Below, piece by piece: positions 3,191 through 19,482 of a stretch of DNA of 64,000 bases. Numbering within the stretch: position 1 is the stretch's first letter; the number at the start of each line of letters is the position of its first letter. The notes under the pieces were generated by a model that saw only the letters and a program-made list of their open reading frames with translations, searched no databases and was not told the DNA's origin. The stretch covers positions 5,030,522-5,094,521 of the forward strand of contig OX638329.1 in NCBI GenBank assembly GCA_951812755.1, given 5' to 3'. This stretch comes from an uncultured Latescibacterota bacterium (GTDB taxonomy: Bacteria; Latescibacterota; UBA2968). Both the position numbers and the translations under genes were made by a program.

Positions 3191-4150
3191 ATGAAAATTG
3201 TTTTACACCCCCCTGTCGATGAAGACCTTTGCCAACAAGTTCGAGACACGGCTCCCAACGCCGAAGTTGTCATGGCAGATAATCACAATGTCATTGAAGC
3301 TGTCGCAGATGCCGAAATTATATTTGGAAATTTTTCGTCTGAAATTGTCAGTGCAGCCCCCAATCTCAAATGGATTCAATCCACGAGTGCTGGCATGGAC
3401 AAAGCACTGATCCCCGAAGTCGCCAACAGTGACATCACAATATGCAATGCCAGCGGCGTCCATGCCGTTCAGGTCGCCGAACACGCCTGGGCACTCACCA
3501 CTGCCCTCACGCGCGGGCTACACGTTTCTTTTCGCCATCAACTCGACCATGCCTGGACGCGCCCACCACTTGCCGACTTATTGGAAGCCACCATTCTCAT
3601 CGTCGGATTTGGCGGCATTGGTCAATACTATGCACAACTCGCCCAGGGCTATGACGCGCGTCTGATTGCGCTGGATATCCAGGGCGGAGACAAACCCGAT
3701 TATGTCGAAGCGATCTGGGACATGGACCGCCTGGATGAAGGTTTGCAAATAGCCGATGTCGTATTTATCGCCGTGCCGTACACACCCGAAACCGAAAAAC
3801 TCATCAATGCTCGCACCCTGAGCCTGATGAAAAACACAGCCTTTCTGATCAACACAGCACGCGGTCCCATCGTCGATGAAACCGCTTTAGCCGAAGGCCT
3901 CACAAACGGCGAAATCGCCGGCGCTGGCCTGGACGTGTTTGAAAAAGAACCCCTATCTCCCGACAGCCCGCTCTGGGACATGGAAAATGTCATCATCACC
4001 CCACACGCTGCTGGCGGGTCTCCCAATCGACACAACCGAACCGTTGGATTCTTCTGTCAGAATCTAAAACGCTATCAGGCGGGCGAACCGCTCTTTAACG
4101 AAGTTGACAAATCCCTCGGATATCCAAAAAGGGAACGACGCGTCAAATGA
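3191..4150 (+). CDS. D-2-hydroxyacid dehydrogenase, NAD-dependent
   Basis: Cytoplasmic oxidoreductase that interconverts a 2-hydroxyacid and a 2-ketoacid; the substrate cannot be read from sequence. At 319 residues the family layout is complete: a split catalytic domain around a central Rossmann domain with IVGFGGIGQ. The catalytic triad is visible as Arg in NTARGPIVD, Glu in DVFEKEPL and His in TPHAAGG. The ribosome site AAAGGATT precedes the ATG, and a TATAAT box lies at 3163. The stop codon overlaps the sulfatase start as ATGA, so the two are translationally coupled, suggesting work on the same substrate or its breakdown product. Confidence 0.92.
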   Translation: MKIVLHPPVDEDLCQQVRDTAPNAEVVMADNHNVIEAVADAEIIFGNFSSEIVSAAPNLKWIQSTSAGMDKALIPEVANSDITICNASGVHAVQVAEHAWALTTALTRGLHVSFRHQLDHAWTRPPLADLLEATILIVGFGGIGQYYAQLAQGYDARLIALDIQGGDKPDYVEAIWDMDRLDEGLQIADVVFIAVPYTPETEKLINARTLSLMKNTAFLINTARGPIVDETALAEGLTNGEIAGAGLDVFEKEPLSPDSPLWDMENVIITPHAAGGSPNRHNRTVGFFCQNLKRYQAGEPLFNEVDKSLGYPKRERRVK

Positions 4151-16560: not shown

Positions 16561-17337
16561 ATGAACACGGGTTCTGGAGCATTTAATTTTGATCGCGTCA
16601 AAGTATGGTATCATTGCCCTCAAGACCATCTTGCCGACCTGCCAGTAGTATTTGCCCTGCACGGGGCCTCGCGCAATGCCAGCACCTATCGCGACACCTG
16701 GGCCAGCCATGCCGATATGCACGGATTTTTGTTATTGGCCCCGGAATTTTCACTGGCGAATTATCCAGATGAAGAGACATTTAACCTCGGCAATGTATTT
16801 GCCGAAGATGGCACGCGAAATGCCAGGGTCGATTGGTCCTTTCAAGTCATTGAAGGCATTTTTGATCACGTCAAAAAACGCGTGGGACTCCGAGCATCGT
16901 CCTACGGATTTTATGGACATTCGGCGGGTAGCCAGTTTGTACATCGATTTTTGTACTTCATGCCTCAATCGCATGCACATATCTTTGTAGCCGCTAACGC
17001 TGGATGGTACACCATGCCCACATTCAAACAGACCTATCCCTATGGATTGACCGAATCGGGTCTGACTGTCGCGGATCTGAAACGGTCGTTGAACCAGCGG
17101 GTTGTGATACTCCTGGGCACTGATGATGTGGATGTAAACCACCCCAAATTGAGGCGCACGCCGCAGGCGATGATGCAGGGCGCACACCGCTTTGAGCGCG
17201 GTCACACATTTTTTGAAACGGCAAAACGCGAAGCCGACGCACTCAATGTGCCGTTCAACTGGCAGTTAGATACAGTGCCCAATGTGGGACACAACAATGC
17301 GGGAATGGCAAAAGTAGGCGTTGCGTATTTGGTGTGA
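16561..17337 (+). CDS. Alpha/beta hydrolase, PHB-depolymerase/feruloyl-esterase-like
   Basis: Esterase-type protein of 258 residues. The oxyanion segment FALHGASRNASTYRD lies near 33, the nucleophile elbow YGHSAGSQ near 120, Asp in LLGTDDVDV near 185 and a terminal His in VPNVGHNNAG near 244. No signal peptide is present. It follows the cytochrome gene by 13 bases with AAAGAGGAAAGA before the ATG, so the two are probably co-transcribed. The ester substrate cannot be inferred. Confidence 0.8.
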   Translation: MNTGSGAFNFDRVKVWYHCPQDHLADLPVVFALHGASRNASTYRDTWASHADMHGFLLLAPEFSLANYPDEETFNLGNVFAEDGTRNARVDWSFQVIEGIFDHVKKRVGLRASSYGFYGHSAGSQFVHRFLYFMPQSHAHIFVAANAGWYTMPTFKQTYPYGLTESGLTVADLKRSLNQRVVILLGTDDVDVNHPKLRRTPQAMMQGAHRFERGHTFFETAKREADALNVPFNWQLDTVPNVGHNNAGMAKVGVAYLV

Positions 17338-17405
17338 TCCGCAGATGAACGCAAATAAAAAAGAGGACTGGGGGCTTGGATAGGCTAATCGCTTATAAAT
17401 GAAAG

Positions 17406-17436
17406 AATGGCCGCGATCCCTGTTATCGCGGCCATT
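17406..17436 (-). terminator. Strong hairpin terminator
   Basis: AATGGCCGCGAT (17406-17417) pairs perfectly with ATCGCGGCCATT (17425-17436). On the minus strand TCTTTCATTT follows. It ends the putative minus-strand transcript and could also stop plus-strand transcription of the esterase gene. Confidence 0.75.
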
Positions 17437-17523
17437 TATGTACTGCAAGTCATAGAACCTCCTATGTCAGCCGATCGGGTGAGAGGCTCTAACACCCGAC
17501 CGCTGGGTACAGATTGGTGGCAT
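17436..17523 (-). other. Two very short frames with strong ribosome sites
   Basis: Frame 1 (17523-17467) encodes 18 residues and frame 2 (17453-17436) encodes 5. Each has AGGAGGTT five to six bases before ATG. Frame 2 ends on the first bases of the terminator stem. The arrangement looks like leader peptides or attenuation-type control rather than ordinary genes. Confidence 0.35.
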
Positions 17524-17749
17524 AGTAACCTCCTCTTGTGCGTATTGCGGCCCGTCACACCCACCCGCGGTTCGATGAACTTTCTATGCCCTATGTGTTT
17601 ATATGCGAAGGTCTAAAGAACGGTATCCAAGTCGGGTTACCGAATGGCGGTAACGAGTCCGACACCAAAAAAGACCAGATGTAAAACACGCGGGCGAGAA
17701 CCTTTTCGAGCGGAATGCCGCCTGACGATTCATATCGCCTGTTGTTTAG

Positions 17750-17779
17750 AATATAACCCGATAAATTGCGGGATGTCAA
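17750..17779 (-). promoter_or_regulatory. Sigma-70-like promoter of the minus-strand transcript
   Basis: TTGACA lies at 17779-17774 and TATATT at 17755-17750, with 18 bases between. It fires away from the dioxygenase gene at 17887. Confidence 0.65.
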
Positions 17780-17886: not shown

Positions 17887-19482
17887 ATGGGATATGGCAA
17901 ACGAGAAGAGCCGAAATTATTTAACGACGAGCAAATGCGTCAATTTATCGCAGACGGGTACGTAATTTTTAAGCCAAATGTGCCCGATAATCTGCACGAA
18001 ACCATCCGGCAAAAACTACAATTTATGGTAGATGAAGAGTTCAATTACGGCAACAATGTGCTACCTCGCGTTCCCGAGATGGACCGCATCTTGAACAGCC
18101 CGGAAGTCCGGGGCGCGCTCATCAGCGTACTCGGCCCGGGATATATCGAACACCCACACCGGTTTTGTCACTACATCCCACCCGACGCAACACAACGAAC
18201 ACTCGCTCAAAATTGTCATCAAGATTCTTACACGCCTCTGGGACGCCCGCGACAACACTACCCGCGCTTTGCGCGCATCATGTACTATCCACAGGATTCA
18301 CCCGTTGAAATCGGTCCCACGCACGCGATTCCCGGCACACATTATCACAGGCGATTGACCGATAAAGACCGCCAAAACGCCATTCCAATAGCCGGTAACG
18401 CCGGCACAGTATCCATCACGCATTTTGATATAGGACACGCCGCAGGCATCAACGCGCTTCGACAACCCCGGCATATGATCAAATTCATCTATGTGCGCGC
18501 AGAAGAACCGACCAAACCCTCGTGGGATTGCCAATATCATATCTGGCGAAACCCCAAAACATACAAAACACCGCATGATCTGCACCTAATCTGGTCGCAT
18601 ATATGGGATTGGCTATGTGGCAAAAAGGATCGATACGAAAGTTTTCGCGCATCAGACCCTGCAGTTTGTGAATTAGAAGACTTGCATCACGACAACCTGG
18701 ACAAACAACTCGCAGCCATGCATTCAATAGCCGCAACAAAAAATGCCGATGCAATTCCAGCACTGATTCACAAGCTCAATTCCGCCGAACAGTGGACGCG
18801 CCTCGCGGCTGTATATACCCTGGGCGCAATCGGTCAACCCGCGGTTCAACCCCTTGTAGAAGCACTCTTAGATGCTGCCGCACACAAAGACGATGATCCC
18901 GTACCCCAATCATGGAATGAAGGCGCCATATCGATGGAAGATACCGCACATGCGCTTGCCGCCATAGGCACACCTTCACTAAATGCGCTGATCGGACTGC
19001 TGGACAATCCAGGTGAATGGGCACGTATCAACGCGGCCTTCGCACTCGGTGAAATGGATTCTCTGGCGACACAAGCCATACCCGCACTCACGCGCTGTTT
19101 GGACGATGCCTCTCACTGCGTTGTGCGAACAGCCACAGATGCGCTGGGTAGCATTCGGCAAAACAGCGAAGAATTTATATCCGTACTCGAGCGGCTCCTC
19201 AAAGTGGGACGCCCCGAATGGCAAATGCCCGACCGACGCGACTGGACGCCCTACGATCAGGTCCGCGTCAACGCCGCAATGGTATTTACGCGCCTGGGCA
19301 AAGACGCCACATCTGCCGAAGCCCTTCTGCTCGACACATTATCCGACCCCAACGGTCACGTCGCCGCATTTGCTCTGGAAGCATTGCGGCGGATAGGCAC
19401 ACCCTCGGCAATAGATGGCGTCATGGAATATCTGATGACGCGGCGGTGGGATGAAAGCATTGAGAAAGGAAGACTGTTTTGA
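17887..19482 (+). CDS. Phytanoyl-CoA dioxygenase (PhyH) family protein fused to HEAT repeats
   Basis: A 531-residue fusion. The first 250 or so residues form a PhyH-type Fe(II)/2-oxoglutarate dioxygenase: iron ligands H111 and D113 in CHQDSY, distal His184 in DIGHAAG, and Arg192 as the likely 2-oxoglutarate anchor. From about 270 to the end there are repeated helical pairs such as AIPALIHKLNSAEQWTRLAA, VQPLVEALLDA and LGEMDSLATQAIPALTRCLD, typical of HEAT/PBS-lyase repeats. Such repeats usually mediate protein contacts. The hydroxylation substrate is unknown. The stop overlaps the next gene's TTG start, implying coupling to the BNR protein. Confidence 0.88.
   Translation: MGYGKREEPKLFNDEQMRQFIADGYVIFKPNVPDNLHETIRQKLQFMVDEEFNYGNNVLPRVPEMDRILNSPEVRGALISVLGPGYIEHPHRFCHYIPPDATQRTLAQNCHQDSYTPLGRPRQHYPRFARIMYYPQDSPVEIGPTHAIPGTHYHRRLTDKDRQNAIPIAGNAGTVSITHFDIGHAAGINALRQPRHMIKFIYVRAEEPTKPSWDCQYHIWRNPKTYKTPHDLHLIWSHIWDWLCGKKDRYESFRASDPAVCELEDLHHDNLDKQLAAMHSIAATKNADAIPALIHKLNSAEQWTRLAAVYTLGAIGQPAVQPLVEALLDAAAHKDDDPVPQSWNEGAISMEDTAHALAAIGTPSLNALIGLLDNPGEWARINAAFALGEMDSLATQAIPALTRCLDDASHCVVRTATDALGSIRQNSEEFISVLERLLKVGRPEWQMPDRRDWTPYDQVRVNAAMVFTRLGKDATSAEALLLDTLSDPNGHVAAFALEALRRIGTPSAIDGVMEYLMTRRWDESIEKGRLF

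Follow-up and report, generated by a model that had tools for sequence, protein, structure and literature searches.

Within the window, the whole stretch of 64,000 nucleotides analysed here, a short putative transcription unit lies on the minus strand between two longer frames. On one side, a frame on the opposite strand (17887-19482, plus strand) reads away from the unit and encodes a PhyH-type dioxygenase domain fused to HEAT repeats (Pfam), and on the other side a converging frame of 258 residues (16561-17337) has no Pfam match. No co-directional gene follows closely behind the terminator of the unit; the next same-strand frame of at least 70 codons is found about 2 kb on, with two opposite-strand frames in between.

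All coordinates of the unit given below are on the minus strand. It opens with a promoter, TTGACA-18-TATATT (17750-17779), which matches the consensus at 11 of 12 positions and, with the start taken from the -10 box, would give a transcript of about 340 nt (17406-17744). The first ribosome site (17521-17534) consists of AGGAGG at 17534-17529 and ATG at 17523-17521, and starts mini-ORF 1 (17467-17523), read as MPPICTQRSGVRASHPIG and a stop, 18 codons. Hairpin 1 (17468-17505) lies between the starts of both mini-ORFs; it begins at +19, counting the A of the AUG as +1, and in the window copy there is no T run behind it. The second ribosome site (17451-17463; AGGAGG at 17463-17458, ATG at 17453-17451) starts mini-ORF 2 (17436-17453), read as the five codons of MTCST and a stop, and the unit closes with an intrinsic terminator (17406-17436), whose hairpin starts at +18 of the second AUG. 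These elements, namely the promoter, the terminator, the interval of about 340 bases, the two AGGAGG-ATG starts, the frames of 18 and 5 residues and the stem, had been named in a preliminary description; with the coordinates rechecked on the window sequence, each of them lies where it had been placed, and sequence, folding and conservation confirm them all. The unit is also overlapped by two minus-strand frames that start with TTG, 60 and 62 codons long, which were given no weight.

Counts of consensus sites are not above chance in this region: between 16000 and 19000, five promoter-like sites were found against 4.1 (sd 1.9) expected from shuffled sequence, and three terminator-like sites against 3.0 (sd 1.9), so the case for the unit rests on other evidence. 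Part of it comes from folding. Hairpin 1 has a folding z of -4.45 and the terminator hairpin one of -5.86, with none of 200 shuffles as good in either case, and the 349-nt stretch as a whole gives z -3.67, with none of 100 shuffles as good. Rfam had no match in the window, and the unit belongs to no Rfam family by the gathering cut-off; a permissive Rfam search of five member loci gave four weak matches, all short of the gathering score, and three of these fall outside the modules described below. RNase P RNA was rejected as an identity, the single RF00010 match of the host genome (307.7 bits) being elsewhere, and so was tmRNA, of which ARAGORN finds none in the window.

Conservation and genomic surroundings

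Each of the 10 other genomes of the same genus carries a single copy of the unit, 75-95% identical to the unit of the window, which settles that the observation is real. The preliminary description had named a lack of conservation in close relatives as the finding that would speak against it; the comparison was run, and the unit is conserved. Among the 11 genus members, mean pairwise identity is 0.93 over the promoter, 0.93-0.95 over the strands of the helices P1-P3 described below and 0.97 over the first Shine-Dalgarno (SD) and AUG (17537-17521), and falls to 0.67 upstream and 0.45 downstream of the unit. As far as the letters tell, this profile with its sharp edges is that of an RNA gene.

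Relatives' genomes that were searched are given G-numbers here, and loci in those genomes L-numbers. Four genus members were compared for their surroundings: frames of similar size flank the unit in G002, G006 and G009, and G008 has different neighbours, among them an opposite-strand frame of 202 codons that runs up to the end of the unit (the frame caller had picked a frame antisense to it). In G014, the gene that follows the unit is likewise on the opposite strand.

A long-range domain in the 5' part

The 5' part of the RNA is predicted to be closed by three long-range helices. P1 pairs GCGGC (17717-17721) with GCCGC (17547-17551), with 100% of cells paired and two of five pairs changed on both sides; P2 pairs CCGCTCG (17707-17713) with CGGGTGG (17561-17567), with 91.9% paired and two of seven pairs so changed; and P3 pairs GGTTC (17698-17702) with GAACC (17569-17573), with 95.6% paired and again two of five. 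Taken together over nine sequences, with the apical part omitted, 95.4% of cells are paired, 6 of 17 pairs are changed on both sides and the covariation score is 0.297. In 500 shuffles, the paired percentage, the two-sided counts (of pairs as well as of cells) and the covariation score were never reached, and sliding the helices out of register left 33-46% of cells paired; the count of further standard pair types was not significant (58 of 500 shuffles reach it).

The nine sequences are the window's own, those of G009, G005, G004, G007 and G008 (with the window, 6 of the 11 genus members) and those of G014, G012 and G013. Related sequences can exceed such shuffles without there being any structure; here, the changes on both sides of a pair are contributed by separate lineages (G014, G012 and G013), which argues against a mere effect of relatedness. 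G025 and G038 were left out of the pair count since MAFFT misaligned them; on reading by eye, the 5' strand of P1 is ACGGC in both, opposite GGCGT (one mismatch) and GTCGT, respectively. RNAalifold on 12 full sequences predicts 88 pairs, 11 of them changed on both sides, with a covariation energy of almost nil (-0.11); the covariation support quoted above is that of the trimmed domain with G012 and G013 added. For the apical domain (17588-17697), the consensus fold is predicted to contain GCCC..GGGC, GGTCT..AGACC and a GTTACCG..CGGTAAC hairpin. This domain is conserved less, at 0.83 among the 11 genus members, and by eye G025 and G038 have a much reduced version of it; the folding of the short G025 RNA does not surpass that of its shuffles (z -0.90, 31 of 200). 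P1-P3 are found also in G012 and G013 in leaders of genes for CBS-domain proteins, considered below, and are absent by eye from the host's own leader of that kind. We regard a three-helix domain P1-P3 as supported by this covariation. Together with conservation and with membership in the family described next, it favours the regulatory RNA among the identities that the preliminary description had offered.

Distribution of the module

With a sequence model of the core (R1), relatives were reached in further genera and families of the class, and reading them by eye brought out a recurring module: a strong SD, AUG-CCN-CCN (Met-Pro-Pro, MPP) and a hairpin, which is sometimes the terminator itself. 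A later model, R3, finds 36 sites at E up to 0.0052 in 23 of the 47 genomes of the class, where 24 of the 36 match by construction because R3 was built from 24 modules. By family, sites occur in 15 of 15 genomes of the host's family, in none of six of the order's other family, and in none of one and 8 of 25 in two further families. The models R1-R3 are of sequence only, R2 including a misaligned part of the hairpin, and searches of more than 40 genomes ran with stricter filters and with a limited number of candidates scored per genome (12 in one search), so absences in them are not proof.

Outside the class, five places at E up to 0.01 were found among 386 relatives, most of these outside the phylum, and all five look coding: L144-L147 (outside the phylum) and a place on contig 134 of G051 were rejected by eye as resembling coding sequence. 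Also rejected by eye were the weaker R3 matches L198-L202 and L204, as stretches inside coding sequence, and the weak matches L025, L042, L043, L046-L049, L054, L057, L058, L073 and L141-L143, as coding or chance. Loci L020, L022-L024, L050-L053, L055, L056, L124, L127-L129 and L203 lie outside the by-eye reading, as do listed places above E 0.01 that carry no locus number. A wider pattern scan of other genomes gave 16 stretches where, by our own estimate, about 15 are expected by chance. On these matches, the module family appears only in one class of Candidatus Latescibacterota, and no description of it was found in the literature, mostly open-access papers, on noncoding RNA, small RNA and leader peptides of Latescibacter and Latescibacterota.

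The genes downstream of modules in other relatives include those for an epimerase, a sigma factor, a redoxin and a PTPS-family protein, and in the group of G030 an ABC transporter gene lies behind a separate T-run hairpin (by eye; Pfam for G036). At L138 and L140 (G039 contig 221 and G031 contig 30), a module whose mini-ORF is longer (MPPG...RLHR) is found about 0.4 kb upstream of a gene of the sigma-70 family (Pfam for L140 only). At L045 (G030 contig 30), two MPP modules stand in tandem with a third SD-AUG frame (MPSVRNSFSRQGR) ahead of them, apparently in one transcription unit.

Module geometry and reading frames

The geometry of the module was read from 28 rows, which after removal of four duplicates with overlapping SD left 24 distinct modules; the module in front of the CBS gene of G007 stands outside this set, its frame of 73 residues exceeding the limit of 45. 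In 20 of the 24, the first base of the best hairpin falls at +19 to +21 (A of the AUG as +1), and GCG occupies +21 to +23 in 20 of the 24; many of the modules are from close relatives, so these counts are not independent. The mini-ORFs of the set are 6 to 32 codons long, with examples such as MPPGCL, MPPVCR, MPPDCFRRLG and MPPGYFWRSLRT. The position of the stop codon shifts while the hairpin stays; the distance from SD to hairpin thus appears to be kept better than the peptide.

Would the peptide nevertheless be the product? A gene for a functional micropeptide beginning with Met-Pro-Pro would account for the recurrence of MPP in the listed modules, and for residue 5 of these frames being often Cys or Tyr. 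Little is kept beyond MPP, while frame length runs over the whole range just given and up to 73 in the G007 leader. In the genus, mini-ORF 1 has three, three and two variable columns at codon positions 1, 2 and 3 (10 genomes, with few changes in all), and this lack of a coding signature makes a functional peptide unlikely. The second ribosome site and mini-ORF 2, moreover, are lost in G008. The small-peptide gene that had been considered in the preliminary description thus finds no support here; we hold a peptide gene to be unlikely, and the specific form of it set out above to be quite improbable.

The two codons after the AUG call for separate consideration. As CCNCC is contained in the search models and in most of the patterns, most of its invariance follows from the way the modules were found. 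Each of the four letters occurs at the third base of the second Pro codon (codon 3), whose CC does not change, which hints that proline rather than the letters of the RNA is kept. CCNCC could also be kept as RNA, as CCACC can pair weakly with GGAGG. Frames without Pro-Pro exist as well: mini-ORF 2 (MTCST) and the frames that come first in the host's CBS leader (MLPKPDS) and in G013 (MHRPDT). Consecutive Pro codons are present in mini-ORF 1 and absent from mini-ORF 2, and the host genome encodes EF-P (PF08207, E 3.9e-25), so that the window unit combines a Pro-Pro frame with a genome in which EF-P is available.

Sites for CsrA resemble SD sequences, and an RNA with several GGAGG sites might be thought to act as a CsrA sponge. 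Such a role would leave both the AUG and CCNCC unexplained, and CsrA (PF02599) was not found in the host genome at E up to 0.001 by a search that was positive in 3 of 14 controls, E. coli and B. subtilis included. We therefore rejected a Csr/Rsm sponge RNA, whose probability we consider close to negligible.

Copies in front of CBS-domain genes

A second copy of the module in the host (L167, contig C1:1038425-1038471) is located upstream of a gene whose protein has two CBS domains (Pfam, in the host and in G011). The pattern GGAGG-N1-8-ATGCCNCC occurs at seven distinct sites of the host genome and, by eye, only the window copy and this CBS leader are short frames in non-coding regions before a hairpin. 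The leader, at about 1038240-1038565 of contig C1, is arranged as a promoter (TTGACA-17-TATATT), the MLPKPDS mini-ORF, a second mini-ORF (MPPTNLCGSDGKSY) overlapping a hairpin with a T run and, no promoter-like site intervening, the gene. Its terminator is missing from the consensus scan because the loop is longer than the limit of the scan.

A search for CBS homologues in 15 genomes of the family, started from the gene behind the G012 module, gave a close homologue (E below 1e-35) in 10 and only distant ones in G003, G005, G009, G010 and G014. Each of the 10 genomes with a close homologue has an MPP leader on at least one CBS copy. For the host, G006, G007 and G008, the gene led to the leader, and the pattern used to read it made no demand for CCNCC; the leaders of G001, G002 and G004 were seen with a pattern that requires CCNCC; leaders are found also in G011, G012 and G013, and no MPP leader was found at the closer CBS homologue of G013 (contig 255). 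A terminator fold is present at the frame in the host's CBS leader, in G012 and on contig 176 of G014. In this last case (L135, about 3740-3850, reverse strand), the MPP leader and terminator precede a frame starting MTIQDIL, which begins like the CBS protein, soon diverges and stops, possibly a remnant of the gene.

The simplest reading of the CBS leader copies is that of pyrL-like terminators gated by ribosomes, where Pro-Pro may be the gate. The window copy shares part of this design. By sequence, it has a leader frame with a strong ribosome site, and an intrinsic terminator overlaps or closely follows a frame (mini-ORF 2 and the terminator of the window); a regulated gene downstream on the same strand is present behind the CBS leader copies and absent behind the window copy. 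A cis attenuator of a neighbouring gene in the window is hence unlikely, and the suggestion in the preliminary description of a leader-peptide attenuator holds for the same module before CBS genes, the host's included, which is attenuator-like, and not for the window copy, behind which no co-directional gene is close. Of the three identities it had offered, the preliminary description is borne out in part.

Perhaps the window copy was once such an attenuator, which by decay or relocation has lost the gene it controlled and now only terminates. The G014 leader in front of its short diverged CBS-like frame speaks for this, as do the leaders of G012 and G013, which combine a core of the window type with a CBS gene. 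A relic would be expected to drift, and all 11 genus members keep the promoter and the helices at identities of 0.93-0.95; G008 retains the unit amid other neighbours. On balance we find decay improbable.

Discussion

We propose that the window unit is a stand-alone structured RNA gene belonging to a family of ribosome-gated hairpin modules, of which it would be one of two copies found in the host, and we put the chance of this at about even. With no co-directional gene behind it, the window copy is probably a stand-alone RNA with ribosome-gated hairpins. When the AUG is in the P site, the ribosome extends over the message to about +16, and with codon 2 there to about +19, which would mean that a pause at Pro-Pro places its edge at the foot of the hairpin. 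Let us assume that this is how the gate works. A ribosome starting at the AUG would have its leading edge near the hairpin foot; moving on through the Pro-Pro codons, it would melt the hairpin and, in the leader copies, allow polymerase read-through, while a ribosome pausing at Pro-Pro, or one that never starts, would let the hairpin form. Applied to the window copy, such gating would determine how a small RNA is folded, how long it is or how stable; this RNA would act in trans, for instance by sequestering a binding partner of the P1-P3 domain, which it has in common with the CBS leaders of G012 and G013. The presence of P1-P3 in those leaders suggests a common binding partner, and its apparent absence from the host's own CBS leader makes a shared trans target a guess. 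In general terms, the modules might be lineage-specific RNA switches that read the speed of Met-Pro-Pro bond formation, as set by EF-P activity, prolyl-tRNA supply or initiation, through a hairpin at the leading edge of the ribosome, and that serve both as attenuators of CBS genes and as stand-alone regulatory RNAs; we put this forward tentatively, as a possibility well short of probable.

A different account would dispense with the gate. The unit could be a small structured RNA that draws 30S subunits or ribosomes to its strong SD sites and so serves as a decoy or platform; the short frames would then be by-products of initiation, and Pro-Pro would have no role. In favour of this, the SD and AUG are the best-kept part of the unit in the genus, the hairpin keeps its place near +20 although peptides vary after MPP and their stop codons shift, and G030 has three SD-AUG units in tandem. 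A decoy has no need of leader copies placed directly before a terminator and a CBS gene, and the four letters seen at the third base of codon 3 hint that Pro-Pro matters. We take this account to be a doubtful one that nevertheless deserves some weight.

If the gating model holds, the module would be a natural sensor of Pro-Pro translation built in compact form, and its stand-alone version a small RNA derived from an attenuator gated by ribosomes. Its small size makes the module open to direct testing in E. coli. The RNA family has no Rfam entry, and for the uncultured phylum in which it occurs, no RNA work was found in the literature searched.

Trans-acting RNAs derived from terminated leaders exist, and the window unit resembles them in being a leader-like RNA without its gene, where trans action is here only proposed. 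The CBS leaders have the same order of parts as the pyrBI (pyrL) attenuator of E. coli, where a ribosome on the leader frame that enters the intrinsic terminator prevents termination, and, in a polyproline-pyrL reporter, a Pro stretch ahead of that terminator raises termination in the absence of EF-P (PMC5021804). Unlike in pyrL, Pro-Pro here occupies codons 2-3, the distance to the hairpin is nearly fixed, the frame is often shorter than 20 codons and no gene follows the window copy. The mgtL leader of mgtA in Salmonella is similar in that it is a short frame with Pro codons in which translation speed sets the downstream hairpin and EF-P acts, the Pro codons making mgtA respond to EF-P (PMC6460261). 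The Pro codons of mgtL alternate, and stalling on them raises mgtA mRNA via alternative stem-loops (PMC6460261), whereas stalling in the module described here is predicted to favour the terminator.
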